From contig JAFECE010000002.1 of the NCBI GenBank assembly GCA_018242295.1, positions 124,001-188,000 of the forward strand: DNA of 64,000 bases, written 5' to 3'. Origin of the DNA: Pseudomonadota bacterium (GTDB lineage: Bacteria > Pseudomonadota > Alphaproteobacteria > Rhizobiales > Hyphomicrobiaceae). A program made the position numbers and the translations under genes. Positions within the stretch are counted from its first letter, which is position 1, and each line of letters begins with the position of its first letter. This document shows positions 4,548 through 32,007 of this stretch, in pieces. The notes below the pieces were generated by a model, which saw only the letters and a list, made by a program, of their open reading frames with translations, did not search any database and was not told the origin of the DNA.

Positions 4548-4550
4548 AGT

Positions 4551-8606: not shown

Positions 8607-8816
8607 TTAGCGCCTGAGCTGGGGGAATATGCCGTGGATCTCCTGGATCGCGTTTTCGAGTTGAGCGATGATTTTGAGAGCACTTGAACGCATCGCAAAG
8701 ATGCTGGGACTAGGAAAATTTGCCGTGTCGGTCAAAAACTTTCTCCGGATCTCTATCTCGCGAGAATTGTCAACGAGAGCTTGCTTCGCAACTTCCAGTT
8801 CTTTGTCGTCGGTCAT
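8607..8816 (-). CDS. Small hypothetical protein
   Basis: The frame gives 69 residues from an ATG (MTDDKELEVAKQALVDNS...), hydrophilic and mostly helical, with no membrane segment. No strong ribosome-binding site is seen. Length and composition are compatible with a real small gene, but I recognise no family. Confidence 0.45.
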   Translation of the reverse strand: MTDDKELEVAKQALVDNSREIEIRRKFLTDTANFPSPSIFAMRSSALKIIAQLENAIQEIHGIFPQLRR

Positions 8817-9497: not shown

Positions 9498-11396
9498 GTG
9501 TTTTCCGTTTTGCGTCCGCAGTCTCACGCAGTTCTATTGCTGCTCGCCGCCACGTGCTTGAGCACGCCCGCCGCTCACGCGGGTAAAAAGCACTCCTCAA
9601 CGATCTCCAAGCAAACAGCCCAAACATTCGCACCGGTGATGGCGGTCGTCAGTCTAAACGGCCAGCGGGTATCATTCTATGACGCGCATGGATCGTCGCT
9701 GCGCGCACCGGTTTCGAGCGGCCAGAAAGGGCTCGATACTCCAGCTGGCGTTTATGCTGTCTTGGAGAAAGACATCGATCATCACTCCAACGTCTACGAT
9801 GACGCCGCGATGCCGTTCATGCAACGCATCACTTGGACGGGGCTCGCGCTACATGCTGGCGTCCTACCTGGTCATCCGGCCTCTCATGGATGCGTGCGGA
9901 TGCCGTATTCCTTCGCTGAAAGCATCTTTCCCCAGACTCAGGTAGGGATGCGGGTCGTGATCTCACCTGATGATTTCGCTCCCGTACCCATCACTCATCC
10001 CTTTCTTTCACAATTGGCGCCGCCGGCACCGGAAGCGGCAGCGCTCACCACGAAGGTCGCAGCGGCCAATATTCCGGATCGTGTCGTCACCGATACGACA
10101 AGTAATGCTCTCTTGGCGGCTCATGACAGCATGCTCAAAAGCGTGAAAACCATCGCCGCAGCTGCACAACTTACCGCGAAGAAGGCATCGGATCGGGCCA
10201 CCGCACTGAAGGCGGCATTCGTTAGCGAAACCACTGCCCATGCGCGCGCTGCCGAACAACTGCGCGCAGCTATGCTTGAACGCCGATTGGCCAGCGACCA
10301 ACTTGCTCGGGCATCCGGCGCACTGAGCGTCGTGCAAAGTGTGACCTCAGCGGCTTCAGGCCGCGATGCGGTGGCGCGGGCGATAGCCGCTTCGCACAAA
10401 GCGGCCGAGGCGATTGAGGAGGCGCGGACAAGCGCCGATGCAGCGGCAGCGCGATTGAACAGTGCTGAAGCCGACTTGCAGGCGACGGCCGACAAGTCCC
10501 TTCCACGCAAAGAAGCGAGACGTGTTCTCTCAAAGCGGAAGCAAGAGTTGGTTACCGCAGAGAGGCGGCTACGCGCCGCCATTTCCGAGAAGCACGAGGC
10601 GAACGCGCGCATTGCGGACGCCGAACGGAAGGCATTCACTTCCGGCCGCTCGCGTTCGCTCAAGCAATTGGAAGAAACCAAAGATCGAGCGCAGAAGCGC
10701 AGTGCTGTAGCAGCCACGACCTACGCGAGCGCGGACACTCGTTTCCAAGATGCGATGAGGCGCCTCGCAGAAGCCCGGGCAAGCTACAGCGCGGCGGAGG
10801 CCGCCAGAACCGAATCTGTGACTGCTGCGGCGGTCGCGCTCGGCCGGACGCGGCCTGTCTCTCTCTTCGTCAGCCTGAAAACGCGCCGCCTCTACGTTCG
10901 GCAGGCTTTCGAACCGGTCTTGGAACTTCCAATTACAATTGAAGCTCCGCAGATGCCGATCGGCACTCACGTGTTCACGGCAGTGGGGTTTGATGACCAA
11001 AACGGAACATTGCGCTGGACGGCCGTTTCAGTGGGACGGAAGGATAGCCCGGATCATCGGCCAAAGCTGATGCCAGACTTAGATACGAATGCAACGCCGA
11101 CAAATTCCCGCGATGCTTCGGCAGTCCTTGATCGACTGTCGATGCCGCCCGAGATCGTCGTGCGATATTCTGGCTTCGTGTGGCCTGGTTCCTCGATAAT
11201 CGTATCCGACGAACAGTTGAGTAGCGAAACGGGATCCGGGACTGATTTTATCGTGGTGATGAGCAGCGAACCCCAAGGTGGGTTGAAGTCCCGCAAATCC
11301 GAGGTCGCGGCGGCGCGCCGGAAGCGAGCCGCAGACGTTGACAAACGAAACGATCGCTATCAGCCAGAACAATCCTCGTTCTTTTCGTTCTGGTGA
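9498..11396 (+). CDS. L,D-transpeptidase with coiled coil and second YkuD-like domain
   Basis: The GTG start follows a GGGGGGAG ribosome site. The 632-residue protein has a signal peptide (VLLLLAATCLSTPAAHA). Next comes an N-terminal YkuD domain with catalytic signature H119...S129-H-G-C132-V-R. An Ala-rich, charged coiled-coil region follows at about residues 190-450. The C-terminal domain (LFVSLKTRRLYVRQAFEPVL...MPIGTHVFTAVGF) resembles a YkuD fold without the SHGC motif. L,D-transpeptidases make 3-3 peptidoglycan cross-links or attach proteins to the wall in the periplasm. The degenerate second domain may bind the wall. The gene is convergent with the ClpP-fold/NlpC fusion. Confidence 0.85.
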   Translation: MFSVLRPQSHAVLLLLAATCLSTPAAHAGKKHSSTISKQTAQTFAPVMAVVSLNGQRVSFYDAHGSSLRAPVSSGQKGLDTPAGVYAVLEKDIDHHSNVYDDAAMPFMQRITWTGLALHAGVLPGHPASHGCVRMPYSFAESIFPQTQVGMRVVISPDDFAPVPITHPFLSQLAPPAPEAAALTTKVAAANIPDRVVTDTTSNALLAAHDSMLKSVKTIAAAAQLTAKKASDRATALKAAFVSETTAHARAAEQLRAAMLERRLASDQLARASGALSVVQSVTSAASGRDAVARAIAASHKAAEAIEEARTSADAAAARLNSAEADLQATADKSLPRKEARRVLSKRKQELVTAERRLRAAISEKHEANARIADAERKAFTSGRSRSLKQLEETKDRAQKRSAVAATTYASADTRFQDAMRRLAEARASYSAAEAARTESVTAAAVALGRTRPVSLFVSLKTRRLYVRQAFEPVLELPITIEAPQMPIGTHVFTAVGFDDQNGTLRWTAVSVGRKDSPDHRPKLMPDLDTNATPTNSRDASAVLDRLSMPPEIVVRYSGFVWPGSSIIVSDEQLSSETGSGTDFIVVMSSEPQGGLKSRKSEVAAARRKRAADVDKRNDRYQPEQSSFFSFW

Positions 11397-11438
11397 CTGG
11401 GTTGGGACGCCACACGCGCAGCGTCAAGATCTGCTCCT

Positions 11439-12668
11439 TCAATCGAGACTGTGGGCGTAATACTCGATTTCATTGTCGCGCCACGCGGCTGGATGGCCGG
11501 AAAAACCCTTCTTTATGCTGACGACATTGTAATTGTGCTCGCCGGCCTGGACAATGTCGGGGCCCTCTGCGGCAATGGCTTCGGTGCTCTTGGTGCTGGG
11601 CCGAACGATGGCAATGTGGCCTGGCTTATCGTCATGATGATTGTGATAGGCGGCGACGACGAGCTTGCCGGCATTGGCAGCGTTCTGAGCCTCGAACCCG
11701 TCCTTGAGCTGACGCCAGCCTTGTGCCGGACCTTCACTCGCTAGCCATTCGCTCTGTGCGTTGGCGAGAAGCTTTTGTCCGTGTTCAGGTGGTCGGAGAA
11801 TGTAGACGCCCAATTGCTTTGCCGCCGATGCTACGAAGGCACTGCAGTGCGTATGCTTGCCCTCGGTTTTTTCAGGCACTCCGGTCGGGTCGCCAGTCTC
11901 CCAATTGATGTGCTGGCCGGCGGGCCAGTGCTTCTCGACTTCAAAGCTATCGAGCTTTTCGGCGAGCCGCTTTCCTGCGGCGGAGATGTCATGCTCCGAC
12001 GGCGCATGGATCTGCCGTGAATTTTCATCGGCTAGCGGCCTCTGCACCAAGTTTTCGTTCTCGGCGAGCAGTTGGGCGCCAGATTTCCAGACGTCGGTGC
12101 CTACCGCCTCCATCTTGACTCTCTGAATCCAGTTTTGATTGACCCCCGCCGGCCTCCAGTACTTGTCCACGATCCGGAGCCATCCGTCCCTATCGAGCCC
12201 GATGAGCCGGTGATGCGCGTCATTGTGTGCGATTTCGTGAAAAAGCCAGAGGCTTGCAGGAGCCGCAAACCGCTTTTCTCCCTGCACGTAAATGAAAACG
12301 CACATTGATGCGCATTGCGCGCCGGCCTTTACCCCCGTGTACAGCTTTGTCGTCTTCTTGATTTCCTGGAGAACGGCGATGGCACGCTCACCATATTTTA
12401 CCGATCCGCCGGGAGAGTTCAGGATCAAATAGACGGACGTGATTTGACCCCGGTATTCATCGTAAGCAGCCTCGAGTTTTGGAGCCATCGTTTCGTCGGT
12501 GGGTCCTTTCCACGACATCAGCAACATGCCCGGATGCTTTTCCGAAGGGCGAACGTGCAATATGCCGGATTTTTCCGGTGCAGCTGTCGCGTCGGTCACC
12601 CCCAGGGCCAGGATCGATGTAAAACAGATCATCAAGGCACCTAAGCCGCCTGCCAGCGAACCATGCAT
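11439..12668 (-). CDS. Secreted ClpP-fold serine protease / NlpC-like fusion
   Basis: The ATG at 12668 follows an AGGGAGGA site and gives 409 residues beginning with a signal peptide (LMICFTSILALGVTDATAA). Residues about 35-200 carry ClpP-fold landmarks: LNSPGGSV, the nucleophile region QCASMCVF (Ser121) and WLFHEIAH (His144). Residues about 270-400 look like an NlpC/P60- or CHAP-type cysteine hydrolase with HCSAF (Cys275) and GHIAIVRP (His351). The product is therefore a predicted exported enzyme with two hydrolase domains, one serine-type and one cysteine-type. Peptidoglycan peptides are the likely target of the second domain. The neighbouring convergent L,D-transpeptidase supports a cell-wall role; this is inferred. 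Confidence 0.7.
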   Translation of the reverse strand: MHGSLAGGLGALMICFTSILALGVTDATAAPEKSGILHVRPSEKHPGMLLMSWKGPTDETMAPKLEAAYDEYRGQITSVYLILNSPGGSVKYGERAIAVLQEIKKTTKLYTGVKAGAQCASMCVFIYVQGEKRFAAPASLWLFHEIAHNDAHHRLIGLDRDGWLRIVDKYWRPAGVNQNWIQRVKMEAVGTDVWKSGAQLLAENENLVQRPLADENSRQIHAPSEHDISAAGKRLAEKLDSFEVEKHWPAGQHINWETGDPTGVPEKTEGKHTHCSAFVASAAKQLGVYILRPPEHGQKLLANAQSEWLASEGPAQGWRQLKDGFEAQNAANAGKLVVAAYHNHHDDKPGHIAIVRPSTKSTEAIAAEGPDIVQAGEHNYNVVSIKKGFSGHPAAWRDNEIEYYAHSLD

Positions 12669-13312: not shown

Positions 13313-13974
13313 TCACCGCTGATGAGGGACCGCCAGCGCGTTGTTGATGGCCGTCGGCGCCATGAGCGCGTTGCCGTACCGGAGCATGAAGCTATTTGCG
13401 GGCATCGATGGAAAGACCGACGGGGCTTCTCTCACGGCTTGGCGGGCGATTGATGTGCCCCAGGCCTGCTGCAGGCCGCTCCGTTCGAAGGCCGCGCGGC
13501 CGAGCGGGCCGAAGGCGTCGAAGAACTTGGCGAACAGCTGATTGCCGAGCCCAGCTAGGCTCGTCGCCGTGCCTGACGGGTTCGGGTCTTTCCAGCTGAT
13601 GCGATCGAGCTCGTTCAGGAAGCGGCGGATCACAGCCCTATCGGCTGGCGAAAAGATCGTGTTGAAGAGCGTCGCCTGTCGTGAAATCACCTGTGGCGAG
13701 AGGAACTCGCCGTTCTTTCCTTGCGTCAGCTTCGAGAGGTACGCCATCTTGATGCTATTCCACACTTGGCCGTCGGCGCCTGGCGACGCGCCATATTTCT
13801 GCATGCCCCTGCGAATGAGGTTCAGCGCTTCGATCGTGCCGGCCGGGATCTGAGAGTTGGGCGACGGAATGAGTGCGTCGACGATACGCTCCAGCGTGTC
13901 GGCGTTCTGTGCGATCCTTGTGGGGTGTCGATGTTCTTGTCGCGGCGGCTTTTCCCTTGTCGATCGTCTGTTCT
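13313..13974 (-). pseudogene. 5'-truncated hypothetical gene remnant
   Basis: The frame ends at 13313 and stays open up to about 13974, where a stop precedes it. It encodes coherent protein sequence (LERIVDALIPSPNSQIPAGT..., AFERSGLQQAWGTSIAR...). An ATG at 13804 exists in frame, but the protein-like sequence continues upstream of it without a start. The 5' end overlaps in another frame with the 3' part of the TetR-type gene. I read this as a gene that lost its 5' end when it was joined to the TetR remnant. Family not recognised. Confidence 0.5.
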
Positions 13975-14378
13975 AACCACGCCAGTTGCACTGAAAGCAG
14001 GTCTGCCTGACGTTCCGAGAGAAACCCGCGGGTGCGCAATTTTTCGCGCTCTATCGCATTGTGCAGGGGCATTTGCCCGTTGGCGGGATCGCGAAAGATT
14101 TGGCTAAAGGCAGATAACTTGGCCACGGACGGTATGCATCTCTTCGCTATGTCGTCCAGCGCGGCGGTGAGTTTCGAAAGGTAAGCGTCCACTACGGCGT
14201 TGCAGAGATCCTCCCGCGTGCGGAAGTGTCCCTGGATACTGGAAACCCTCATGCCAATGCGGTCGGAAAGGCGCGCGAGCGTGAATGCTTCAAACCCGTT
14301 CGCACGAATCATGCGCTCCCCTTCCGCGAGCAGATATCCCCCCACGTCCATTCGAATCCCATTTTTTGCCCGCCGCAC
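13755..14378 (-). pseudogene. TetR/AcrR-family regulator with replaced C-terminus
   Basis: The first 150 or so residues are a recognisable TetR-type repressor: a DNA-binding helix-turn-helix (AFTLARLSDRIGMRVSSIQGHFRTREDL) and an effector domain ending in the typical WLEQTIDKGKAAA helix. After about base 13935 the frame becomes arginine-rich, low-complexity sequence that shadows the neighbouring remnant, so the native C-terminus seems lost. Start candidates are 14378 and the ATG at 14351. It is divergent from the isochorismatase-like gene, the usual layout for a TetR repressor and its target. Confidence 0.6.
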
Positions 14379-15497: not shown

Positions 15498-15531
15498 ACA
15501 AAAAGGAAGCCCGGCTTAGTGGGCCGGGCTT
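15498..15531 (-). terminator. Terminator of the ribB/monooxygenase operon
   Basis: Bases 15507-15515 and 15523-15531 form a perfect 9-bp stem (AAGCCCGGC/GCCGGGCTT) with a 7-base loop. Read on the minus strand, the hairpin is followed by CCTTTTTG. It lies about 120 bp beyond the stop of the last minus-strand gene (15651), as expected for the operon's intrinsic terminator. Confidence 0.8.
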
Positions 15532-15650
15532 AAGTTACGAGGAACGTTATGGTGGATCGTCTTTAGAAGTGAGACTTATTCGTGCGCAGGCATGGTTCCG
15601 TGCCCCTTGAGAGCTAGGACAATCGGCCGGAAGAGTGGATCACCTGATAT

Positions 15651-16343
15651 TCAAAAATCTCTTCCACTTGCCTCATCGCGGAGCCTGTAGGCAACAATAT
15701 CGGAAATAAAACCAATCTTCATGTCGTGCTGCCGAGCGAAATTGCGAAATTCTGAAAGAGTATTGAGTAGGCCGTCCGCATCCATAACTTCGCAAAGAAC
15801 GCTAGAGGCGTTTAGTCCAGCAATTTGCGCAATGTCTATGGCAGCCTCAGCGCGCCCAGCGTTCTCCAGCATCCCGCCCTGCGCCGCAATGAGCGCAAAT
15901 AGATGGCCTGGTGTAACAATATCGCCTGGTTTGCTGTCCTGATCTATTGCAACCGATATTGTATGAGCACGATCCCTCCACGGAACCCCAGTCATTTCTG
16001 CGTCCTTCGCCTTGATGGAGAGAGTGAATGGTGCTTGCAAATAATATCGTTCCCTCTCAGCCATAGTCTTGAGACGAAGGTGGTCAATTCGTTCATTCTT
16101 GAGAGCCAACAAAATAAGACCGTGCACAGATCGGGACATCCACCGCAGAATGGAGCTGGAGGCGAATTGCGCAGGAATGACGACATCGGCTGTGCCCATA
16201 TTGGCGTAATCATCCACGAGAACGAAGCAGCGCCCCGCTCGGGCCTCCTCAATCAACTCTTCAATTGAATTGATCCCCCGGAAGCGAGGCCATTTGGGTT
16301 GATCCGTGAGAACCTTGAAACAATTCTTCGCGTGGAGAGACAC
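15651..16343 (-). CDS. Divergent RibB paralogue with degraded active site
   Basis: The GTG at 16343 follows GGGGGA and gives 230 residues. It aligns by eye along its length with the neighbouring canonical RibB: VIPAQF/VIPAEF, DRAHTISVAI/DRAHTIAVAI, VTPGHLFAL/RTPGHVFPL, AGLNASSVLCEV/AGLNPSGVICEI. However, the acidic catalytic loop DDEDRENEGDL is replaced by DDYANMGTADV (about residues 44-54), and GHTEAAVD is replaced by GRAEAAID. DHBP synthase needs those acids and that His, so the protein is unlikely to make 3,4-dihydroxybutanone phosphate. The frame is intact, which suggests a retained non-enzymatic or altered role. Confidence 0.8.
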   Translation of the reverse strand: MSLHAKNCFKVLTDQPKWPRFRGINSIEELIEEARAGRCFVLVDDYANMGTADVVIPAQFASSSILRWMSRSVHGLILLALKNERIDHLRLKTMAERERYYLQAPFTLSIKAKDAEMTGVPWRDRAHTISVAIDQDSKPGDIVTPGHLFALIAAQGGMLENAGRAEAAIDIAQIAGLNASSVLCEVMDADGLLNTLSEFRNFARQHDMKIGFISDIVAYRLRDEASGRDF

Positions 16344-16597
16344 TGCTTTTCCCCCGATTTACCCACCCGCAATGCGCGGCTGCGCAGGTGACCAGGTATG
16401 TTGAATGGTGTCGGCGCGAGGTCTTATCTCGTTTGCCCGTTGAAACCGGCATTCGTCCAACGTTTGCACCCTCTGGGTTAATTCGTCCGTCAAGAGAGTT
16501 TCATGTTGTAAAGCGATAGAAATCACGCGCGTTTTGCAAACGCGACAAAGAGATTTATCGCTCGATTGATAGCCACAGCAGGATCGGGCTATTGCTT

Positions 16598-17311
16598 TCA
16601 AGGTTCTGAGTCGGCATGTGCCAGTGAAAGGCCGCAACTATCGGTTTGACTTCCCATTAGCGTGCGGCGATAGGCGATCAGATTTGCAATTGTTCCGATC
16701 TTCATGTTGTGGCGTTGCGAAAATCGCACGAGGTCTTCCAACCTCGCCATTGTTCCATCGTCATTGATTATCTCACAAATTACACCGGACGGATTTAGGC
16801 CAGCAAGCCGTGCAACGTCGACAGCCGCTTCAGTATGTCCGGGACGAGCCAGCGTTCCACCTGCGAGAGAGCAAAGCGGGAAAACATGGCCAGGAGTCCT
16901 TATTTCATCCCATTTGACATCCAAACGTATCGCGACTGCAATTGTGTGGGCGCGATCTGACGGAGATATCCCCGTAGTGACGCCTTCGGCGGCCTCAATA
17001 GAAACCGTGAATGCCGTATCGTATCGTGACCTGTTTCGAGTTGGCATGGGAGGCAATCCGAGATGGTCCACTTGCTGCTGCGTCAACGCTAAGCAAATCA
17101 AACCCCTTCCATGGCGTGCCATAAAATTAATTGCATTGGCGTTTGCGAACTCAGCCGGGATAACGAGATCGCCTTCATTTTCCCGATCCTCATCGTCAAT
17201 TAAAATGAACATCCGTCCATTTTTTGCCTCGTCGATTATCTCCTCAGCACTGCTGATGTGAGGTTCCAAAACAGAAGGGTCGTTGGCATAGGCTTTTTGA
17301 TTATGACCCAT
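16598..17311 (-). CDS. ribB: 3,4-dihydroxy-2-butanone 4-phosphate synthase (RibB)
   Basis: RibB converts ribulose 5-phosphate to 3,4-dihydroxy-2-butanone 4-phosphate plus formate, feeding riboflavin synthesis in the cytoplasm. The 237 residues show the family signature DDEDRENEGDL (39-49), DRAHTIAVAI, RTPGHVFPL and GHTEAAVD. No GTP cyclohydrolase II (RibA) domain follows, so it is a stand-alone RibB. It lies downstream of two FMN-dependent monooxygenase genes on the same strand, suggesting that it boosts flavin supply for them. A 254-bp gap separates it from the degenerate paralogue. I saw no FMN riboswitch upstream. Confidence 0.92.
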   Translation of the reverse strand: MGHNQKAYANDPSVLEPHISSAEEIIDEAKNGRMFILIDDEDRENEGDLVIPAEFANANAINFMARHGRGLICLALTQQQVDHLGLPPMPTRNRSRYDTAFTVSIEAAEGVTTGISPSDRAHTIAVAIRLDVKWDEIRTPGHVFPLCSLAGGTLARPGHTEAAVDVARLAGLNPSGVICEIINDDGTMARLEDLVRFSQRHNMKIGTIANLIAYRRTLMGSQTDSCGLSLAHADSEP

Positions 17312-17345
17312 CGGAAGAGCCCTCTTATGTGATAAGCGGCGTCCG

Positions 17346-17382
17346 TCCGGAGTGACCTCGATTATGCCGCGGTCACTCCGGA
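17346..17382 (-). promoter_or_regulatory. Strong intercistronic hairpin upstream of ribB
   Basis: A perfect 12-bp inverted repeat (TCCGGAGTGACC/GGTCACTCCGGA, loop 13) sits between the DszA-like gene (stop at 17406) and ribB. On the coding strand no T run follows it, so it may act as an mRNA stabiliser, an attenuator or a protein-binding operator rather than a plain terminator. Confidence 0.6.
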
Positions 17383-17405
17383 TCTATTTTGCTACGGTTG
17401 GCCCA

Positions 17406-18740
17406 CTAGGCCTCCAAAAGGTTATCTCTCAGCGTCGAGCCGGAATATCGAGTCCGGAGGCGGCCACGGCGCTGCAGTTCAGGAGTGACCAAATTCGCGA
17501 AGTCTTCAAAACATCCTGGCGTATAGGTTGCGGCCAGCATGAAACCATCCGCGCCGCCTTCGTCCATGTAATATTCCATTTGATCGACGATATCTTTCGG
17601 CGTTCCGATCGCGCGAGGCATGCCCATTCCTTGAGCGTAGATCAAGGCGGCTTCTCCCACTGTTACAGGAAGCTTACCTGCGGGATCTTTGGCGTAGAGA
17701 ATTGATTCAAAGAGTCCCTGAATGCCCGGCACTTCAATATTTTGGACATTGTCGGTTAGTTTCATCTTGGAGAAATCCAGACCGAAATGGCCTGAAATCC
17801 ATGCGAGCGCACCCTCAAGCGGGATATGAGACATGATGCGCTCGTATTTTTCCTGCGCTTCCGATCGCGTCTCGGCCACAACCGTCTGGAGTCCGTAAAT
17901 GTACTTTACGCTGCCCCTTGCACGATTGAACTTCGTGTCCAAGCGCTCGTTCAAGTCATCAGCGTATTCGCGCATACGCTCGACGTTTGGATGTACGGCG
18001 AAAATGGCCTCTGCGTGCTTGGCGGCAAAGTCACGGCCTCTGCCCGAAGAGCCTGCCTGCCACAGAACTGGACGCCTCTGAGGCGAGGGAGCGCAGAAAT
18101 GTCTGCCGTGGCATTTGAAGTACTTCCCGTCGTGGGCAACGAGATTGACCTTGGATGGATCGGCGTAAACACCTGACGCCTTATCCGCGACTATGGCATC
18201 GTCGCTCCAAGAATCCCAGAGCTTGTAGCAAACCTCCAAATACTCTTCCATTTTTTCGTAGCGTTCGTTTCGCGGGGTCATGTCCTCATGACCGTAGGCT
18301 TCCCATTCGCTTTTCGAATACGAACTAACGACGTTCCATGCGGCGCGGCCCTCGGTCAAATGGTCGAGGCTCGATAGCAATCTGCTCATGGCGTAGGGAT
18401 GCGTGAACATCGTCGAGAGGGTGACGCCAACGCCGAGGTGCTTCGTTGCGCCGCTGATAATGGTGGCGATCGTCGAAGGCTCGTGAGTTGGACACTGGAC
18501 AGCATATTTTACTGTCGCATCGGAGCTATTTTGGAAAGTCGAGTAAGGGGCGAGCTCGTCGGCGATGAACATGGCATCAAAAAAGCCGCGCTCCATCGTT
18601 TGCGCCATATGACGCCAATACTGCGGCTTTGAGAAATCGTAATTGATCTTGTCCTGAGGATTGCGCCACATTCCTGTCGCATGGCTATTTACACCGTGCT
18701 GAATAAATCCGAGCAGATGAGCTTTCTTTTTTGATGACAT
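17406..18740 (-). CDS. LLM-class FMNH2-dependent monooxygenase, NtaA/SnaA/DszA family
   Basis: The ATG at 18740 has AGGA upstream and gives 444 residues. Family landmarks run the whole length: HATGMWRNP near the N-terminus, ERGFFDAMFIAD, SSLDHLTEGRAAWNVVSSY, LWDSWSDDAIVADKASGVYADP, VLWQAGSSGRGRDFAAKHAEAIF and a C-terminal RTRYSGSTLRDNL. These match two-component monooxygenases such as DszA, NtaA and EmoA, which use reduced flavin and oxygen to cleave C-S or C-N bonds. The closest remembered layout is DszA-like. With a second LLM enzyme and sulfite dehydrogenase genes nearby, an organosulfur substrate is likely but not proven. No flavin reductase gene lies in the window. Confidence 0.85.
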   Translation of the reverse strand: MSSKKKAHLLGFIQHGVNSHATGMWRNPQDKINYDFSKPQYWRHMAQTMERGFFDAMFIADELAPYSTFQNSSDATVKYAVQCPTHEPSTIATIISGATKHLGVGVTLSTMFTHPYAMSRLLSSLDHLTEGRAAWNVVSSYSKSEWEAYGHEDMTPRNERYEKMEEYLEVCYKLWDSWSDDAIVADKASGVYADPSKVNLVAHDGKYFKCHGRHFCAPSPQRRPVLWQAGSSGRGRDFAAKHAEAIFAVHPNVERMREYADDLNERLDTKFNRARGSVKYIYGLQTVVAETRSEAQEKYERIMSHIPLEGALAWISGHFGLDFSKMKLTDNVQNIEVPGIQGLFESILYAKDPAGKLPVTVGEAALIYAQGMGMPRAIGTPKDIVDQMEYYMDEGGADGFMLAATYTPGCFEDFANLVTPELQRRGRLRTRYSGSTLRDNLLEA

Positions 18741-18759
18741 TGACGATTCCTACCCTTGG

Positions 18760-19896
18760 TTAGTTATGGATCGATGAGAGTTCATGATTTTTAGTGGGGG
18801 TCGCTCCGGCCCAATTGGTTTTTAGCGGCCTTATTACTCGCTTCATGAACGGACCTGCATCTCGCATCGGGTCATCGAATTGGCAGACGATTCGTTCGAT
18901 GCCCATTTCGGCTAGAAGGGGAATGCGATTTCTGATTTCATCGAAACTGCCAATGAGCCCCAATTCAAAACCGGCATTGGAATCGATCATCTGCTCTTCG
19001 CTAAGTTGCGACCAAGCGGCTGCGCCGGATTGATCCATCACCCCGCGAAAGAACTCGATGATTTCCGCATTTTTGTTTTCCATTACGGACTTGACGCGAT
19101 CTCGCGCTTGCTCGCTCGTCTCGGCGGCTACAACATATGCATTCACCGCGAATTTGACGGTTCTTCCCCGGTGATTTGCCGCTTGGCGAACAGCTTGAAT
19201 GTGCTTTCTTAGATCCGCGTCATTCATGCCATTGAGAAAGAGGCAGTCGCCCCATTCGGCTGCTAGTTCAATGGCGCGATCCGAATGTCCGGCGATCCAC
19301 ACCTCTGGCATGGACGCTTCGTCGAGTCCGTATGTCGGGTGGCTATCCGACTTAGACGTTGTGTGAGACGACCCACCATTTGGCGCCGTTTCCGGATTTG
19401 AATTGGCCGCCGGCCGGAATAAGCCAAAAATTGACCTGAGAAACGCGTCGGCGCGATCATATCGGCGCTGATGGTCGAGCCATTGGACGCCAGATAATTC
19501 GAACTCTGTTTTCCACCATCCGCAAACGATGTTTAAAGCGAGTCTTCGACGCCCAATCTTGGAAAGGGTGTCAAGCATTCTTGCGACCAAGAAGGGGGAC
19601 CTGAACCCGGGCTTGATCGCGCCACATAGGCCGATCCTATTTGTCGTCGCCGCGATTGCGGCCATGATGCTCCAAGCATCCGCCACGCCTTCAGCCGGCC
19701 CATGAATGCAGTTGAGAAGGTTTTCGGATGCGTACAGGAAGTCAAAGCCCATAGCCTCGGCCTGCTGTGCGATTGCCAAGCAGGCGGGTACGTCTGGTCC
19801 GGCCTGATCCTTCACGCGCAACCAGCCGCCATAGACGGGAAGCCAAATTCCGAATTCGACTTGATCGGGGCGTACTGCGCGCCAAGTATTGTCCAT
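18760..19896 (-). CDS. LLM-class monooxygenase, SsuD/SfnG-like
   Basis: The ATG at 19896, with AAGG upstream, gives 378 residues. The protein begins like a bacterial luciferase-fold enzyme (VEFGIWLPVYGGW) and contains AEAMGFDFLYASENL, ATTNRIGLCGAIKPGF and the diagnostic LNIVCGWWKTEFELSGVQWLDHQRRYDRADAFLRSI block. That block resembles SfnG (dimethyl sulfone monooxygenase) and SsuD (alkanesulfonate monooxygenase). Such enzymes use FMNH2 and O2 to release sulfite or a sulfinate. It is the first gene of the minus-strand operon, 19 bp before the DszA-like gene. The exact substrate is not decidable from sequence. Confidence 0.82.
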   Translation of the reverse strand: MDNTWRAVRPDQVEFGIWLPVYGGWLRVKDQAGPDVPACLAIAQQAEAMGFDFLYASENLLNCIHGPAEGVADAWSIMAAIAATTNRIGLCGAIKPGFRSPFLVARMLDTLSKIGRRRLALNIVCGWWKTEFELSGVQWLDHQRRYDRADAFLRSIFGLFRPAANSNPETAPNGGSSHTTSKSDSHPTYGLDEASMPEVWIAGHSDRAIELAAEWGDCLFLNGMNDADLRKHIQAVRQAANHRGRTVKFAVNAYVVAAETSEQARDRVKSVMENKNAEIIEFFRGVMDQSGAAAWSQLSEEQMIDSNAGFELGLIGSFDEIRNRIPLLAEMGIERIVCQFDDPMRDAGPFMKRVIRPLKTNWAGATPTKNHELSSIHN

Positions 19897-20303
19897 AAAT
19901 ATTCTGCCTTATATTTCTTATTATTCTGATGGAGAAAGTATAATCGCGATGAGCGAAGGTATTATAAGGACAAATTTTTTCATGATGCTGTCTGCGTCGG
20001 TTAGATCGTTTCGCTATATTTGGAACTCATCTTGAGCTAAACGTAATCTATTCGACATGAAAACGGAGTCAAGCCGGAAAAATATGAAAAAACAATCACT
20101 TAAGTTGGATTGCAGTAGTTGGATTGATGCTTGGCGATCTTTTGAATAAATTGTTCTTATGTTGGCCAAGTTGCGTTGATGTGCTTTGATCCGGGGGCAA
20201 GCTTCCTCGTCGAGGGCTTCCCTGCTCCGGGAGGGGAAAATCGCAGTTGCTTTGCGCGTTGGCCGGGGCGCGGCGCCAACAGCTCTCTTGATAGAAGGTG
20301 GGC
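19897..20303. promoter_or_regulatory. AT-rich divergent promoter region (LLM operon / LysR gene)
   Basis: This gene-free region lies between the divergent first monooxygenase gene and the LysR gene, the standard place for LysR binding. It is visibly richer in A and T than its surroundings. It contains a direct repeat of AGTTGGATTG at 20103-20112 and 20117-20126 and a loose ATTAT-N15-ATAAT inverted repeat at 19920-19944, both candidate operator elements. Confidence 0.5.
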
Positions 20304-21200
20304 ATGACGCTTGAGCAGATGAAAATCTTCCGAGAAGCCGCCCGCTTCGGTAGCTTTACAGTCGCAGCCGATCATCTCGGTTTGACGCAGTCGGCTGTAA
20401 GCATGTCGATTAAGAAGATCGAGGAGCGAAACAATATCGTCCTGTTCGAAAGGGCAGGTAAGGGGCTCGTGTTGACTGATGCCGGTCAGTTTCTGTTTAG
20501 AGAAGTGTCGCGCAATCTCGCTAATCTCGATCTCCTCTCCCGCCGCTTGAAAGATTTTGAGACGGGTAGCAAGGAACCGGCTGCCGTGGCCTGCACTCAA
20601 CACGTCTATAACTTTTGGATGCCGGGAATCGTCTCGGAACCTGGCAAGGTTTTCCGCTCATCAGTGGATTTGATCGTCGGCGCAGCCGATGACGTAACGG
20701 CTTGGGTTATGCGCGGAACCGTCGACATGGGCCTCACCGAGAGGCAACCCTGCCACCCATTGTTCGAACATGCCAATGTCTTCAACGACCGGATCATTCT
20801 CGTTGCTGCTTCCGACAAAGCCCAGACGGTTCCCGATAATGTCGGTTTCGGCGACCTTGAAAAATATGGCCCGGTTATTTGGGCACTCGATGATCATGAC
20901 CGAGTGATAGGACAAGCGCTTAGCGATGCGGGAGTTGATCCAAGTCAATTGCAGCACTCCGCACTTCGTTTTGAAACTGTGGAAGCAGTATTGTGTTCGC
21001 TAAGATACGGCCGGGCGATTGGATTTGTGTCGGAGGCAGCTGCTAGCTCCGCGATTGCTGCCAACCATTTGAGGAGAGTAGGAGAGCTTGAAATTGAATT
21101 GAAGTACTATCTGTTTTGTAAAAAGGGGTACGATATCGCGAATATCGCAAAGCGAGTGTCAATTGCTGCGATGGATATGACTGGTAGAAGGCCGGGTTAG
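20304..21200 (+). CDS. LysR-family transcriptional regulator
   Basis: The ATG at 20304 follows AGAAGG by six bases and gives 298 residues. The N-terminal winged helix-turn-helix is typical (MKIFREAARFGSFTVAADHLGLTQSAVSMSIKKIEERNNIVLFER), and a periplasmic-binding-like effector domain follows. LysR regulators usually control a divergent operon and respond to a substrate or intermediate. Here the divergent unit is the monooxygenase-ribB operon. The CysB/Cbl branch senses sulfur compounds, but I cannot place this protein in that branch by eye. Confidence 0.9.
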   Translation: MTLEQMKIFREAARFGSFTVAADHLGLTQSAVSMSIKKIEERNNIVLFERAGKGLVLTDAGQFLFREVSRNLANLDLLSRRLKDFETGSKEPAAVACTQHVYNFWMPGIVSEPGKVFRSSVDLIVGAADDVTAWVMRGTVDMGLTERQPCHPLFEHANVFNDRIILVAASDKAQTVPDNVGFGDLEKYGPVIWALDDHDRVIGQALSDAGVDPSQLQHSALRFETVEAVLCSLRYGRAIGFVSEAAASSAIAANHLRRVGELEIELKYYLFCKKGYDIANIAKRVSIAAMDMTGRRPG

Positions 21201-21532
21201 TTCTAGCGATTGAGTCGTTATGCTTTTGCCCTTCGAAGCCTATTTCAAAATTCTGGACGAAGAAAAGGGATGGCATTATCGGCGAAAACGCCGGTTGGCC
21301 AAGCCATTGAAACCGACGAGAACGGTTTAATAGAATTTAGGTCTACGTCGACTTCAACGGTGAACTGGCCGTGCAACCGATCAGCGTGAAGCTTTGTAAG
21401 TTCGCTTGCACGGGAGGCCACAAGGAGCCCTATGGCCTCTCACGCAGCGCGGTGAAGTTGAGCCTGGTGTCGCCGAGACCTGAACGGCACGAAGATGTAC
21501 AGCTATTCAAGCCCATCTCAACTGTGCGGTCC
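21201..21532. other. Gap between convergent genes
   Basis: The stretch holds short open frames around 21340-21590 without a start signal or recognised family. It lies between the convergent ends of the LysR and YeiH genes. No terminator hairpin was identified with confidence. Confidence 0.4.
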
Positions 21533-22600
21533 TCAAGCAACGAGCTTGATGAGAGCCAAGCTGAAGCCGGCGATGAACAGCGATGAAATGGCGCCAAGCA
21601 GGAGTGGCTTTAAGCCTTTTGCCTTGAGCTTCATGATGTCCGTTTCGAGTCCCATCGCGGCGAGCGCTATGGATAACAGAAACGTCGTCACTGGCACGAT
21701 GATGTTCTTCACGTCTGGCGGAACGACGATCACGCTATTCACCGCGACGAGTGCGATGAAGCCGACAACGAACCATGGCATCGGAGCCTTGGCCTTGACG
21801 CTTGCGCCGTCGCTGTGATGCTGCAAGGAGTTCCGCGCTGCCAGCAAGCCGAGAGTAATGACGACGGGCGCCAGCAGCATCACGCGACTGAGCTTCGCGA
21901 TCGTGCCGTATTCTCCCGAGGCTTGGCCGTACTGGAAGGATGCGGCGACGACCTGAGCTATCTCATGGATCGATGCGCCGGCCCAGAGCCCGAAGCCGTG
22001 GGTATCCAAGTGGAGAAAGGCTGGAAGCAAGGGATAAATGAACATCGATATCGAGCCAAAGATGGTTACGCAGGCGACGGCGTAGGCCACATCTTCGTCG
22101 TGACCCTTCGTGACTGTATTCGTCGCGATGACGGCGGATGCGCCACAAATCGATGTGCCAGCGGCGATGAGCTGCGTCAGCTTACGGTCGACCCCCATGA
22201 CAGGGCCCAACCAACTCGTGAAAACGAATGTGGCTATCAATGTCGCGACGATGATCGCAAATCCGATCGGTCCCACCTCGACGATCTGCTGCGCCGTCAG
22301 CTGGAAACCGAGAAGAATAATGGCGAACCGCAGGATGCGCCGAAGCGAGAAGGTTACGCCCTCCTTGGCGCGTCGCGGTGTGCCAACGATGTTGTGGAAA
22401 GCAATACCCAGGACAATGGCGAGGATCATGGGGCTGAATGTTCCGACCCCGGGTAATGCGCGAAGAGCAAAGGCAAGCGCTGCGATCGTGGCAGTAAGAA
22501 AAAGTCCGGGCCACACGCCTTGACCAAAGCTCCACGCGGTTGATCGATCTTGAAAATCGGTTGTGGAAGCGGATTCACTGGTCTGCGAGGCGTCCTGCAT
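21533..22600 (-). CDS. YeiH-family (UPF0324) putative sulfate/sulfite exporter
   Basis: The ATG at 22600 has AGGAG seven bases upstream and gives 355 residues with about ten hydrophobic segments. Family landmarks are visible: [14 protein letters not shown], the [36 protein letters not shown] block, and [14 protein letters not shown]. YeiH proteins are polytopic inner-membrane proteins often annotated as sulfate exporters. Biochemical evidence for the family is limited. Lying between an organosulfur operon and a sulfite dehydrogenase, it plausibly exports sulfite released by the monooxygenases to periplasmic SorAB. It is divergent from sorA. Confidence 0.85.
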
Positions 22601-23273
22601 TGCATTCTCCTATCTGGCGCGCCGCAGCATCCGGTCCTTCTTCTCCACATTCCAACGCAAAAATTTTCTGGTTCTGATCGGGTTTTCTGATGATTTGGAG
22701 ACTGATGAATTGCGCGACGAAGCTGCAAATACCGATGACGACGGTCGTGACGACCGGCCACCCCCGCGCTGGATTATGATGCTACGAGAAAGGCGCGCTT
22801 AGCGGCCAGATGCGCAAACGGCTCTGACAACAGAACTACATCGCGATACGAGCATGAGGTCTGCCACGTGCGCTCAGGGCTCGTCCTTCGGATGAACATC
22901 GCTTTGTGGTGACGGTCGAGAGCGCGTTGGAACACTGCGCCTCACAGCCATCTTCGATAACTCTGTAAAAAAGGGCAGATGCACTTTCGCCAGTATTTCG
23001 TGCCGCAGCAGCGCTCCTCGATCACCTCGGACTCGAATTTACAATGACGCGCCTTCTGTCCTATGCACATCGGTTCCTGAACCAAGTAAGAGCCTGCGCA
23101 TCCTCTTCAAAATTATCTAAACGTCAGCAAGGCTCTTCGGCTCACAGAGTCAAATTTTCGCTCTGTCATAAACGCAGCCGATCGGAACGTTCGGAAAGTT
23201 CTGTTGGACGGTCGCTCCGATCGCCTTTCTCATGGACAAAAGGCATTTCCATGCTTTCTATTGGAGATCATCC
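22601..23273. other. Long divergent intergenic region (yeiH-like / sorA)
   Basis: There are 673 bp without an intact gene between two divergent sulfur genes. On the minus strand around 22610-22770 an open frame without a start codon encodes a hydrophobic stretch (VVTTVVIGICSFVAQFISLQ), perhaps a decayed small membrane protein. Promoters for both neighbours must lie here. Confidence 0.4.
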
Positions 23274-24506
23274 ATGGGTCCATCGGATACCAGAAGCAGG
23301 ATCTTGACGCGCCGGGCTTTGCTGGGGCAAGCCGCTTTCAGCGGGACAGCTTTCATCGCGGCCCCTTTACGGGCGAGCACGATCAACCTGCCTTTTTTGA
23401 ACGGCAGCAGAGAAATGACCGGTGCTTTTCCGCAGAAAGGAGAGATGGTTCTGCAGCGGACAAGAGCGCCCTTGCTGGAGACGCCATGGGAGACATTCGA
23501 TAAAGATGTCTTCACGCCCAACGATAAGTTTTACGTCCGCTGGCACTGGGGAGGCATCCCAGAAACAGTCGACGCCAACACATTCCGTCTCAGGGTGCAT
23601 GGAAACGTCGAACGCCAACTTGCGCTCTCGCTTGCCGATCTCATGCACAAACTGCCACGGGTTGAGCTTGCAGCCGTCAATCAGTGTTCGGGGAATTCCC
23701 GAGGCTTCTTCGCTCCACGCGTACCAGGCGCGCAATGGGGAAATGGCGCCATGGGCAACGCGAAATGGGCGGGCTTTCGCCTGAAGGATCTTCTCGATTT
23801 GGCCGGCGTAAAGGCCGGAAGCGTGCAGGTGCGTTTTGCCGGGCTCGAGCAGCCGGTCGTCGATGACGCTCCGCCATTCTTGAAGTCGCTTGCCATCGAT
23901 CATGCGAGAGATGGCGAGGTTATGGTTGCCTACGCCATGAATGGACAAGCGCTCCCGTTCCTCAATGGCTTTCCGTTACGCTTGGTCGTCCCAGGGTGGT
24001 ACGCAACCTATTGGGTAAAGATGCTGGCGGACATCGACGTGCTTGATAAGCCTGACGAGAATTTCTGGACTAAGAAGGCTTACCTCATTCCGGATACGCC
24101 GCGGGCCGATATCCTGCCTGGGATAACGGACGTGAAAATGGTGCCGATCAACCGCATGGTCCCTCGCTCTTTTGTAACCAATCTCAGCTCGGGCGAACGC
24201 ATAAAGGCTTCGGGGCGGAATGATGTACGCGGAATTGCGTTCGGAGGAGATTGCGGCGTTGCAAAGGTCGAGATATCCGTCGACAGCGGAGCCAATTGGC
24301 AGCTTGCAGAGCTTGGCCCCGATGAGGGTAAGTATGGCTTCCGGCGATGGACCGCGAAATTCACCTCACCGGCTGTTGGCCAACGATTAAGTCTCAAGAC
24401 TCGTTGCGTGAATGCAAATGGCTTGGCCCAGCCTGACAAACCAAACTGGAATGCCTCAGGCTTCATGCGCAACGTCATCGAGACAGTGGACCTTGTGACC
24501 GTTTGA
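23274..24506 (+). CDS. sorA: Sulfite dehydrogenase, molybdopterin subunit (SorA-like)
   Basis: The ATG at 23274 follows TTGGAG and gives 410 residues with a Tat leader (RILTRRALLGQAAF), so the enzyme is exported folded to the periplasm. The sulfite-oxidase fold is shown by YVRWHWGG, the molybdenum-ligand region AAVNQCSGNSRGFF (Cys138), WAGFRLKDLL, NGFPLRLVVPGWYATYWVKML and a C-terminal dimerisation domain (VEISVDSGANWQLAEL...RRWTAKF). It oxidises sulfite to sulfate and passes electrons to a c-type cytochrome encoded 9 bp downstream. SoxC is the main alternative, but the single-heme partner and absence of other sox sulfur genes favour SorA. Confidence 0.87.
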   Translation: MGPSDTRSRILTRRALLGQAAFSGTAFIAAPLRASTINLPFLNGSREMTGAFPQKGEMVLQRTRAPLLETPWETFDKDVFTPNDKFYVRWHWGGIPETVDANTFRLRVHGNVERQLALSLADLMHKLPRVELAAVNQCSGNSRGFFAPRVPGAQWGNGAMGNAKWAGFRLKDLLDLAGVKAGSVQVRFAGLEQPVVDDAPPFLKSLAIDHARDGEVMVAYAMNGQALPFLNGFPLRLVVPGWYATYWVKMLADIDVLDKPDENFWTKKAYLIPDTPRADILPGITDVKMVPINRMVPRSFVTNLSSGERIKASGRNDVRGIAFGGDCGVAKVEISVDSGANWQLAELGPDEGKYGFRRWTAKFTSPAVGQRLSLKTRCVNANGLAQPDKPNWNASGFMRNVIETVDLVTV

Positions 24507-24515
24507 GGAGAATCC

Positions 24516-24845
24516 ATGCGATCTTACGTTCAAATCACCGGCATCGTGGTCACCGCGCTGCTGACTGGAACTGCACTGGCGCACGATTCGGCTCCTCTTA
24601 AATCGGAAAACTTTGATCTGCCCGTCGGCGACCGACAATTCACGGGACCAGGCTCGGAGGTTGCGAACAACAATTGTCTAACCTGTCATTCGGCAGGAAT
24701 GGTGACGGTCCAGGCCCCCCTCTCGAAAGAGGTTTGGGAGGGAATCGTGAAGAAGATGATCAAAGTGTATAAGGCGCCCGTTGCTGACGGTGATGTTGCA
24801 GCCATTGTTGACTATCTGAGCAACAATCCGGCGGCCAGCAAATAA
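24516..24845 (+). CDS. sorB: Sulfite dehydrogenase cytochrome c subunit (SorB-like)
   Basis: An AGGAG site precedes the ATG. The 109-residue product has a signal peptide (VVTALLTGTALA) and one heme-binding CLTCH motif (Cys54, Cys57, His58). Likely axial Met residues lie in the VKKMIKVYKAP segment. The length and position directly behind the molybdenum subunit match SorB, the mono-heme electron acceptor of SorA in the periplasm. Electrons would continue to a soluble cytochrome and a terminal oxidase. The gap to sorA is 9 bp, so they are one transcript. Confidence 0.88.
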   Translation: MRSYVQITGIVVTALLTGTALAHDSAPLKSENFDLPVGDRQFTGPGSEVANNNCLTCHSAGMVTVQAPLSKEVWEGIVKKMIKVYKAPVADGDVAAIVDYLSNNPAASK

Positions 24846-27475: not shown

Positions 27476-28483
27476 TCATTGCGGGGTGAGGGTGATGGTC
27501 AGCGTATCCGCATAGCTGCCGGCGGCAAGCGGTTGAGCATTGAGTTGCGGTGTGATCGAAACTCCTAAGCTTCCCGTTGGCGTATTGCCCGTAGTCAATG
27601 CGGTTGCCCCGGTTTCCGGCCCGCTCGCGGTCGGCACGGTCGCCGTGTTAAGCGAGGCGGTAGCACCCGAAAATGTGGCTGACGCTGCGTAGTCGATTAG
27701 CCGCTGTAATCCACTACCGCTACCGGCTGTAGTAACCGCGCCATTTTGCGATGTCATCTGCACATTTGCAGGGGTGTTACAAAAAGCATTCGGATAAGAC
27801 CGGTTGATGGGCGCCGTGTTTACGCTGCCGTTTGCGGTAATTGGAATCGTAGCCGTGTCGGCCGCAGGATGGTTTGTCCCGCCAATTGTACAAGATTTGG
27901 CGACCGCACCAGTCACAGTGAACGCTTGGCTGGATACCTTCGTCTGAAGGATGCCGGCCAGGGTGCTTGTAAAAATATCAAGTGTGATGTTGTCGATATA
28001 GCTGCCCGCCTGCTGGAGCAGGCTTGGCTGAGACTGCGCCCAAACTGTCACCGCGACACTGAAGTTGCTGACCGATAGAACGGAGGCGGGGAAAGTAAAT
28101 GGCAATACATTCGAGGCGGAAGGTATTCCGCCGCCGGTATAGAGCAACGTGTTGCCACCGCTGCTTGACGTTTGCAGGGTATAGGGCAGAGTGGCCGTTC
28201 CGCCTCCTGAAAGTAACATGGAAGCCGGTAGCGATGACCGATTGAACGAAATTGCCGCTGCGCACCCACCTGCCAAATCGCCGAGAGCCGCGAGAAAAGT
28301 TCCACTGATCGTAATGCTTATAGGCTGCGCAACCGGCGGCGTTGGTGGCGCGTAAGTTCCAGTACTGGCGCTCAGCGGCGTCGCGCTCGCCGATAGAATC
28401 GAGCAAACGGCATTCGCATGGTTCGAACACAAACCACCGAAGGCGGCGGCCAACAACAATACAGCGGCGATACGTGAGGACAT
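27476..28483 (-). CDS. Fimbrial tip adhesin, spore-coat-U (SCPU) type, CsuE-like
   Basis: The 335-residue product has a signal peptide (VLLLAAAFGGLCSNHANA) and two SCPU-type pilin domains. The second ends with the typical SYADTLTITLTPQ donor-type strand, and KSCTIGG marks its N-terminal beta strand. Two-domain SCPU proteins at the end of archaic chaperone-usher operons are tip adhesins, as CsuE in Acinetobacter. Its ATG overlaps the usher stop by one base (TAATG), so translation is coupled. It would be exported and assembled through the usher on the cell surface. Confidence 0.8.
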   Translation of the reverse strand: MSSRIAAVLLLAAAFGGLCSNHANAVCSILSASATPLSASTGTYAPPTPPVAQPISITISGTFLAALGDLAGGCAAAISFNRSSLPASMLLSGGGTATLPYTLQTSSSGGNTLLYTGGGIPSASNVLPFTFPASVLSVSNFSVAVTVWAQSQPSLLQQAGSYIDNITLDIFTSTLAGILQTKVSSQAFTVTGAVAKSCTIGGTNHPAADTATIPITANGSVNTAPINRSYPNAFCNTPANVQMTSQNGAVTTAGSGSGLQRLIDYAASATFSGATASLNTATVPTASGPETGATALTTGNTPTGSLGVSITPQLNAQPLAAGSYADTLTITLTPQ

Positions 28484-31194: not shown

Positions 31195-31213
31195 CGTGGT
31201 CAAAGCATATCGC

Positions 31214-31948: not shown

Positions 31949-32007
31949 GGTGGGCCTCTCCGAAATGGTTTTTGTTTTTTGTGAACGCAAAGCCCTGTGT
32001 GGGGCTG

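Follow-up and report, generated by a model that had tools for sequence, protein, structure and literature searches.

DmoA is known from Hyphomicrobium sulfonivorans and SfnG from Pseudomonas. In Hyphomicrobium, dmoA and dmoB are reported to be adjacent (PMC13352529), and the DmoB gene is described as uncharacterized (PMC9259527). Two further papers place the Bacillus subtilis flavokinase gene ribR within a transcription unit for sulfur uptake and degradation (PMC7693651) and describe CmoO and CmoJ as a sequential flavoenzyme pair for S-alkylcysteine salvage (PMC10863075). The locus described here resembles these systems in combining two flavoenzymes that would act in sequence with a flavin gene inside a probable sulfur unit, but it carries a DHBP synthase in place of the flavokinase (PMC7693651, PMC10863075). 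The first-pass annotation of this DNA, which did not recognize the system as described, was thus too strong on that point. Among the literature matches listed we found no description of rib genes in dmoA/sfnG clusters, and a link between sfnG and ribB was absent from the papers examined for it; a different paper contains dmoA as well as riboflavin terms but mentions them apart. We take CmoO and CmoJ to be the YtmO and YtnJ of the ribR unit, and the LLM2 protein introduced below is distantly related to YtnJ (229 bits).

The window, a stretch of 64,000 nucleotides on contig C4 of a bacterium of the order Hyphomicrobiales, contains the following features.

15507-15531, minus strand: intrinsic-terminator-like hairpin 3' of RibB*, with a 9-bp stem and a T tail
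15651-16343, minus strand: RibB*, 230 aa, RibB homolog without the expected metal ligands, open frame
16598-17311, minus strand: RibB, 237 aa, stand-alone DHBP synthase domain with complete catalytic residues
17406-18740, minus strand: LLM2, 444 aa, NtaA/DmoA-family FMN monooxygenase
18760-19896, minus strand: LLM1, 378 aa, SfnG-like FMNH2-dependent monooxygenase, first gene of the operon
19897-20297: divergent intergenic region between LysR and LLM1, AT-rich toward LLM1 as read from the sequence
20298-21200, plus strand: LysR, likely regulator of the operon
21533-22600, minus strand: YeiH-type exporter, a neighbor judged to lie outside the operon
23232-24506, plus strand: SorA sulfite dehydrogenase, a neighbor judged to lie outside the operon
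24516-24845, plus strand: SorB c-type cytochrome, a neighbor

Open reading frames and family profiles agreed with the earlier view of LLM1, LLM2, RibB, and a degenerate RibB* as one minus-strand operon (intergenic gaps of 19, 94, and 254 nt). The terminator assigned to it corresponds to the hairpin at 15531-15507(-), which has 7 G-C pairs in its stem; only position and quality favor it, as the terminator scan overall gave no excess (12 found versus 13.0 expected). The divergent LysR, YeiH, and SorAB genes were present beside the operon as annotated, LysR with an alternative ATG start 6 nt inside its frame. This regulator was 40-47% identical to LysRs divergent from LLM1/LLM2 operons and 26% identical to the single YeiH-linked LysR compared; it is therefore of the LLM-operon type and likely regulates the operon. 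A search for FMN riboswitches at Rfam gathering scores found none, either in the window or in eight related loci. An isochorismatase-like ORF of the window occurred in none of 12 related loci, and a TetR-like ORF had no match in the single related-loci search that included it.

The description of LLM1 as SfnG-like holds in that SfnG (TIGR04021) was its best NCBIfam match, although the score of 181 bits lay below the cut-off of 383, and the genuine SfnG proteins of the host's contig C9 and of the related locus L013 scored 564 and 549 bits, respectively. LLM1 was rejected as SfnG proper because it fails this cut-off. SfnG was the best solved relative by sequence and also the best fold match; Foldseek on an AF2 model (pLDDT 68) built from the window protein and 9 of its 11 orthologs returned SfnG (8t0u) at an E-value of 2.3e-19, with RutA close at 1.7e-18. 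LLM2 scored above the TIGR03860 NtaA/DmoA cut-off (475.6 versus 279.7 bits) and belongs to that family. It had been called a DszA-like LLM monooxygenase; the enzyme class stood, whereas a specifically DszA-like protein was rejected, since LadA (353 bits) and DmoA (6ak1, 341 bits) were nearer among solved chains than DszA (278 bits). LadA is an alkane enzyme, and by score LLM2 lies at least as near to it as to DmoA. The superfamily that holds LLM1 and LLM2 also includes C-N enzymes (NtaA, EDTA monooxygenase, and RutA) and riboflavin lyase.

Orthologs of LLM1 (59-77% identical) were found in 11 named loci, two of which (L016 and L023) were short, and all 11 also encoded LLM2, the best copy per locus being 73-83% identical. 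A small protein accompanied them in 11/11 loci, an SSS Na+ symporter in 10/11, and LysR and a flavin reductase in 9/11 each; these counts include own-locus query matches for the small protein of L015, L022, and L023 (the last 33-43% identical to four others), the symporter of L013, and the reductase of L014. This LysR/LLM1/SSS/small protein/LLM2/flavin reductase operon, present in Ancylobacter, Bradyrhizobium, Hansschlegelia, Chelatococcus, and others, shares orthologous LysR, LLM1, and LLM2 with the window, but the window lacks the symporter, small protein, and reductase and has RibB plus RibB*. We found no published account of the operon in the literature searched, and its substrate is directly testable. 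The annotation had proposed LLM-LLM-ribB-ribB* with LysR, YeiH, and SorAB as the arrangement to look for in other genomes; the LLM pair and mostly LysR recurred, whereas YeiH, SorA, and SorB were found in 0/12 related LLM loci. At E ≤1e-150, LLM2 was present in one of 103 family genomes, this one, and the GC3 of 0.47-0.61 falls short of the 0.73-0.77 that nine genes lying between 41 and 64 kb have; together these data point to acquisition of the operon.

Elsewhere in the host genome, contig C9 carries a dimethyl sulfide (DMS)/sulfone cluster of DmoA, an MsuE-type protein, SfnG, RibBA, a flavin reductase, RibF, SoxC, and RibA, in which SfnG, SoxC, and RibF exceeded their NCBIfam cut-offs. The same type of gene set occurred in three relatives, in one of them in part, and without DmoA in one more, and such clusters supply flavin-reductase candidates near DmoA. 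The window operon shares with them both LLM size classes, a RibB-family gene, a nearby sulfite dehydrogenase, and a related RibB lineage. It is not itself a cluster with genuine SfnG, flavin reductase, and RibBA. Its LLM1 shares just 28% identity with the SfnG of C9, its LLM2 is 40% identical to the C9 DmoA (which matched 6ak1 with 919 bits), and genes for a reductase, RibF, or RibA were not found next to the operon. The reported lack of a flavin reductase in the window was confirmed for the two families searched, PF01613 and PF03358; their matches lay on contigs C5, C7, and C9 and on C2, C3, C5, C7, and C9, respectively, and none on C4. Closest to the window LLM1 (77%) was locus L013, which has its genuine SfnG, two RibBA genes nearby, and an MsuE-like reductase scoring below the cut-off (152 versus 212 bits). 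The pairing of two LLM kinds with a flavin-precursor gene in an organosulfur setting, as first proposed, recurs in L013, C9, and the C9-type relatives, whose RibBA proteins are the nearest to RibB and RibB*, and the link between RibB and the LLM enzymes is real.

RibB is a DHBP synthase by both score (226 bits for TIGR00506, cut-off 177) and residues, having kept all six positions corresponding to E. coli-type R37, E38, E40, D42, H153, and T154, which we take to be the active-site residues and which were mapped on chain 3lqu. RibB* failed on both counts, with 139 bits for TIGR00506 (170 for Pfam DHBP_synthase, above the threshold of 26) and the changes R43N, E44M, E46T, H159R, and T160A in RibB numbering; D48 was kept. 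Judging from these residues, RibB* should no longer perform DHBP synthase chemistry. Neither protein has a RibA-like domain, and a search for RibA-domain remnants 3' of the two genes gave matches at E <0.01 only where the RibB domains finish at their C-termini, since the query slices began too early, within that domain. We built a tree from 20 of 46 RibB places (6 of the 46 regions being shorter than 10 kb), five plasmid copies, two L013 copies, and four of this genome. RibB and RibB* fell outside a 16-row clade of RibBA without LLM neighbors (support 95/95), and RibB* lay on a very long branch (2.66) inside a 6-row clade with SfnG-cluster RibBA (support 100/99). The position of RibB among the non-housekeeping copies had no firm tree support; its highest identity (75%) was to the SfnG-cluster RibBA of G191. 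An origin of either gene as a copy of the housekeeping RibBA on C5 was rejected by these placements, which suggest that RibB*, and less certainly RibB, derived from the DMS/sulfone-cluster type of RibBA.

Of 79 near-invariant columns, 30 are changed in RibB*, among them the expected metal ligands; the frame is nonetheless open. The extent of change and the long branch would suit a decaying, functionless remnant, with RibB on the island merely by chance. When neutral decay was simulated to 54% identity, the frame stayed open in 94 of 2000 runs; this is weak evidence for decay, and indels, absent from the simulation, would lower that number. We consider this explanation somewhat unlikely, since 201 RibB* codons aligned to the G124 protein with no gap or stop, a purine-rich GGGGGA precedes the GTG start, and the active site of RibB is complete. 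Codon-position differences did not single out the RibB* branch, as the controls themselves differed at 57-62% of third positions, and an AF2 model of RibB* (pLDDT 36, from four sequences) was set aside. Both loci that have LLM1 plus RibB genes, the window and L013, contain an intact and an active-site-altered copy, the altered L013 copy (R43H, E46K) showing a milder loss than RibB*. The altered copies did not group in the tree, so the loss of the active site looks independent. RibB* might be a retained pseudo-enzyme acting as controller or partner of the adjacent active RibB, giving an organosulfur operon that tunes its own FMN supply through a catalytic/non-catalytic RibB pair, and the LLM1/LLM2/SSS operon would encode a so far undescribed pathway in which two monooxygenases act on an organosulfur compound co-transported with Na+; we regard this full proposal as doubtful.

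The interpretation that we favor, and to which we give an even chance, is that of an acquired, LysR-controlled operon for two FMNH2-dependent monooxygenases, re-equipped with RibB and RibB*, having a probable organosulfur substrate and served by a reductase in trans. LLM1 and LLM2 would act in sequence, as two-component enzymes, on a small and probably sulfur-containing compound. Because two-component monooxygenases consume FMNH2 as a substrate, flavin supply may limit them, and RibB would make DHBP and so increase the supply of riboflavin and FMN when the operon is expressed, although the genome holds two further RibB(A) frames and RibB need not be limiting. RibB and RibB* would stand in place of the symporter and reductase usual in related operons, and FMNH2 may be supplied by reductases encoded at other sites of the genome, e.g., the reductase of MsuE type and the flavin reductase in the C9 cluster. 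That dedicated rib genes occur both in the window operon and within DMS/sulfone clusters suggests local budgeting for flavin by bacteria.

For an organosulfur substrate we counted the identity of LLM2 to the C9 DmoA, SfnG as the best solved relative of LLM1, the L013 setting, and the ancestry of RibB and RibB*; against it we counted the position of LLM1 below the SfnG cut-off and its low identity to the C9 SfnG, the nearly equal fold match to RutA, the closeness of LLM2 to LadA, the C-N enzymes of the superfamily, and the related loci. The first-pass annotation had named homologous operons consistently lacking sulfur genes as evidence against its reading, and this is mostly what we observed, none of the sulfur genes searched for being found in 10/11 LLM1 loci, with L013 the exception. 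Named sulfur genes were likewise missing from five plasmid loci with an accessory ribB that were examined out of 298 records, among which L024, L025, and L028 have LLM genes in view, L024, L027, and L028 have flavin reductases, and L026 has neither. These absences, and the presence of NtaA, LadA, RutA, and RcaE in the same families, would fit an amine, N-heterocycle, aminopolycarboxylate, or alkane substrate, imported by SSS in the relatives, with RibB meeting a general flavin demand. Such a substrate is possible, if tending to the unlikely, given that RibB and RibB* have their ancestry near DMS/sulfone-cluster RibBA, that L013 combines SfnG with an MsuE-like reductase, and that SfnG is the best structural match of LLM1.

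The annotation had also joined YeiH and SorAB to the operon, as a single route from an organosulfur compound to sulfate that would have been gained and retained as a block. The genes are adjacent in the window, and SorA (527 versus 600 bits) and SorB (75 versus 93) are the best family matches, though below NCBIfam cut-offs, as is YeiH for TIGR00698 (215 versus 232.6; PF03601, 288 against Pfam's 24.5). A YeiH and SorA pairing recurs on C9, where YeiH scored 111 bits (below the cut-off) and SorA 684 (above), and in congener G346, where distant relatives (32% and 50%) lie within about 2.5 kb; C9 and its relatives, moreover, couple SfnG with the SoxC sulfite dehydrogenase. The C9 pair adjoins a Rieske oxygenase with Cys-His pairs 26 residues apart, a spacing that we take to be typical of methanesulfonate monooxygenase. 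YeiH and SorAB were nevertheless rejected as operon parts, being missing from all 12 related LLM loci and, for SorA, set elsewhere in congeners: in four with SorA 72-75% identical, SorAB lies beside what we read as OxyR/Ahp-like and amidase-like genes, with YeiH on another contig, 1.6 Mb off, or not found. The operon ends at its own hairpin, LysR is unlike the one YeiH-linked LysR compared, neither YeiH nor SorA continues the operon co-directionally, and GC3 differs somewhat (YeiH 0.70, SorA 0.63, LLM1/LLM2 0.58/0.61), so that we judge the single pathway improbable. Under the two-monooxygenase reading that we favor, any sulfite released could be exported or oxidized by general systems of the host (SorAB and YeiH of the window, and SorAB and SoxC of C9) and not by dedicated parts. 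Relatives of SorA and YeiH were present in 7/22 and 10/22 genus genomes, respectively, this one included.

ORF calling reproduced the minus-strand order LLM1-LLM2-RibB-RibB* (19896 to 15651) and the surroundings described in the first-pass annotation:

18760–19896 (−), LLM1, SfnG-like FMNH2-dependent monooxygenase
17406–18740 (−), LLM2, NtaA/DmoA-family FMN monooxygenase
16598–17311 (−), RibB, stand-alone DHBP synthase domain
15651–16343 (−), RibB*, degenerate RibB homolog
20298–21200 (+), LysR regulator
21533–22600 (−), YeiH-type exporter
23232–24506 (+), SorA
24516–24845 (+), SorB

Profile searches placed LLM2 clearly within the NtaA/DmoA subfamily and identified LLM1 as SfnG-like, with a score well under the SfnG cut-off; the RibB model was passed by RibB and not by RibB*, which Pfam's broader domain model accepted. 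The region's best hairpin-plus-T-tract (15531–15507) lies directly past RibB*. In line with the earlier remark that no flavin reductase is encoded here, neither of the two reductase families searched was found on the window's contig. Reductase supply in trans fits PMC13352529, in which a single reductase serves the entire DMS pathway. An isochorismatase-family hydrolase (PF00857; 14285–15397) converges on the operon and has a TetR-like ORF nearby (13755–14378, −); searches of related LLM loci found neither.

A single LLM1 scan of named genomes returned 11 loci (59–77% identity) from a Beijerinckiaceae MAG, Hansschlegelia, Bradyrhizobium (two), Ancylobacter (three), a Xanthobacteraceae strain, Chelatococcus, a Pseudoxanthobacter MAG, and a Burkholderiales MAG. 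In flanks of up to 10 kb, LLM1 was accompanied by LLM2 and by a small protein of ∼100 residues (cross-checked among six copies) in all 11 loci, by an SSS sodium symporter in 10, and by a divergent LysR and a flavin reductase in 9 each. On these counts, LysR/LLM1/LLM2 together with transporter and reductase form a conserved unit. The window copy is unusual by the same measure, lacking the transporter and reductase and possessing RibB and RibB*; RibB genes occur in one of the 11 loci (L013). A Pararhizobium plasmid locus (L012) has the symporter, the small protein, and two LLM2-type genes without LLM1. No account of an LLM1/SSS/LLM2 operon was found in the literature searched, among the matches listed. 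The small protein adjoins the symporter, appears membrane-like by reading of its sequence, and may be a symporter subunit; the L014 copy had no Pfam or NCBIfam match and the L012 copy no Pfam match. Its copies include:

L014, 9669–9980
L015, 13177–13464
L022, 9612–9917
L012, 10290–10631

The proposal that YeiH and SorAB belong to the same module was not borne out. SorA, SorB, YeiH, and the window's isochorismatase were absent from all 12 loci (the 11 LLM1 loci plus L012). Relatives of SorA and YeiH occur in 7 and 10, respectively, of 22 genomes of the genus, the host included. Four congeners (G334, G339, G340, and G345) have SorA at 72–75% identity; their SorAB genes adjoin OxyR/Ahp-like genes and an amidase-like gene (named by reading of translations), and YeiH in these genomes either sits at a distance (1.6 Mb, or a separate contig) or was not found, the completeness of G345 being 85%. 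The G334 YeiH has its own LysR, likewise named by reading. The window LysR shares 40–47% identity with the LysRs of nine LLM operons versus 26% with that YeiH-linked regulator and is thus of the LLM-operon type. Given these settings and identities, we judge YeiH and SorAB to be neighbors of the operon rather than members. Evidence against this reading comes from contig C9 of the host, which pairs a second, more distant YeiH with SorAB, and from G346, where relatives of these C9 genes lie ∼2.5 kb apart.

L048 (host contig C9, 72001–92000), 6932–16988: second YeiH, SorAB, and a Rieske oxygenase

The oxygenase has two Cys-His pairs spaced 26 residues apart, which we take to be a mark of methanesulfonate monooxygenase, a name that no family model searched confirmed. 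A TauE-like exporter was also read in this set.

RibB occurs four times in the host genome: twice in the window, once as a 407-codon frame on C9, and once as a 507-codon frame on C5. The C9 copy belongs to a sulfur and flavin gene cluster:

L049 (host contig C9, 104001–118000), 956–12175: DmoA, MsuE-type reductase, SfnG, RibBA, flavin reductase, RibF, SoxC sulfite dehydrogenase, cytochrome c, RibA

Its DmoA scored 919 bits against the solved DmoA 6ak1, and its MsuE-type reductase 187 bits, under the cut-off of 212. Among 297 genomes of the order, LLM genes lie near RibB in 5 of all 46 places outside the host (E ≤ 1e-78). Relatives of every C9 cluster gene compared (cytochrome c, named by reading, was not part of the comparison) occur in L094 and L096, from the host's genus, and L095, from its family; L093, from another family, has the set without DmoA and RibF. 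The fifth, L108 (G277 contig C5, 259001–275000), combines LLM and flavin reductase genes in a cluster of another type. There (7317–11914), RibB is flanked by two flavin-reductase-like genes and adjoins two NtaA-type LLM genes, without SfnG. An Azospirillum oryzae plasmid (L024, 4119–9752) has the row LLM, enoyl-CoA hydratase, AMP-binding protein, ribB, flavin reductase.

A tree of 31 RibB domains united 16 copies without LLM neighbors (15 of the 46 places plus host C5) in one clade (support 95/95). RibB* clusters with five SfnG-cluster RibBA proteins (100/99); its branch is very long, so its exact position is uncertain, and plain identity agrees with the grouping (54% to G124). RibB and the SfnG-cluster RibBA of G191 share 75% identity, but the RibB branch is not resolved against plasmid copies.

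RibB* differs at 30 of the 79 columns that are conserved in 29 or more of the 30 other RibB domains; the next most changed row differs at 12 of 83. Its substitutions include E44M and E46T in the acidic loop and H159R, positions that are presumably metal ligands. L013, the other LLM1 locus with RibB, likewise combines an intact copy with an altered one, its changes being milder (R43H, E46K); a copy on a Sphingobium plasmid carries R43H by itself. RibB* aligns with the G124 protein over 201 codons with no gap or stop. The frame stayed open in 94 of 2000 runs of a neutral simulation without indels; by itself, therefore, the open frame speaks only mildly for the gene being used.

LLM1 had SfnG as its top match by sequence and fold, with RutA a close second in the fold search (model pLDDT 68). 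LLM2 scored 353 bits with LadA, 341 with DmoA, 281 with hexachlorobenzene dehalogenase, and 278 with DszA. The neighbors of LLM1 in L013 include a true SfnG and a reductase resembling MsuE. These matches, the L013 setting, and the RibB ancestry favor an organosulfur substrate, as predicted from sequence. Given the low identities and the absence of the searched sulfur genes from 10 of the 11 LLM1 loci, a C–N or other substrate is a plausible alternative. Published work covers the SfnG/MsuC/MsuD pathway and MsuE (PMC8234197), the CmoO/CmoJ pair (PMC10863075), a Bacillus subtilis sulfur unit containing ribR (PMC7693651), and the uncharacterized DmoB of Hyphomicrobium (PMC9259527); passages of PMC8399692, PMC11354265, and PMC4342826 contain nothing on a link between rib genes and sfnG/dmoA. 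Among the matches listed, the literature searched yielded no description of rib genes within dmoA/sfnG clusters.

LLM1 was detected at E ≤ 1e-60 in 4 of 297 genomes of the order, the host included; of the 103 genomes of the family, the host alone had LLM2 at E ≤ 1e-150. Third-position G+C is 0.47–0.61 in the operon versus 0.73–0.77 in nine genes at 41–64 kb. This rarity and low G+C indicate that the operon was most likely acquired. Third-position G+C is mostly below the latter range at 1–40 kb, and an island edge near 41 kb is possible. A tRNA-Arg (tct) region (4471–5039) is a possible integration site remnant; the tRNA gene is overlapped on the opposite strand by an ORF of 177 aa that had no Pfam match. 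Glycine betaine/choline/sarcosine degradation genes were read at 41011–62506. A chaperone-usher-like pilus cluster occupies 27476–32583, with an usher (PF00577, weak match) and, by reading, chaperone-like and spore-coat-like secreted ORFs.
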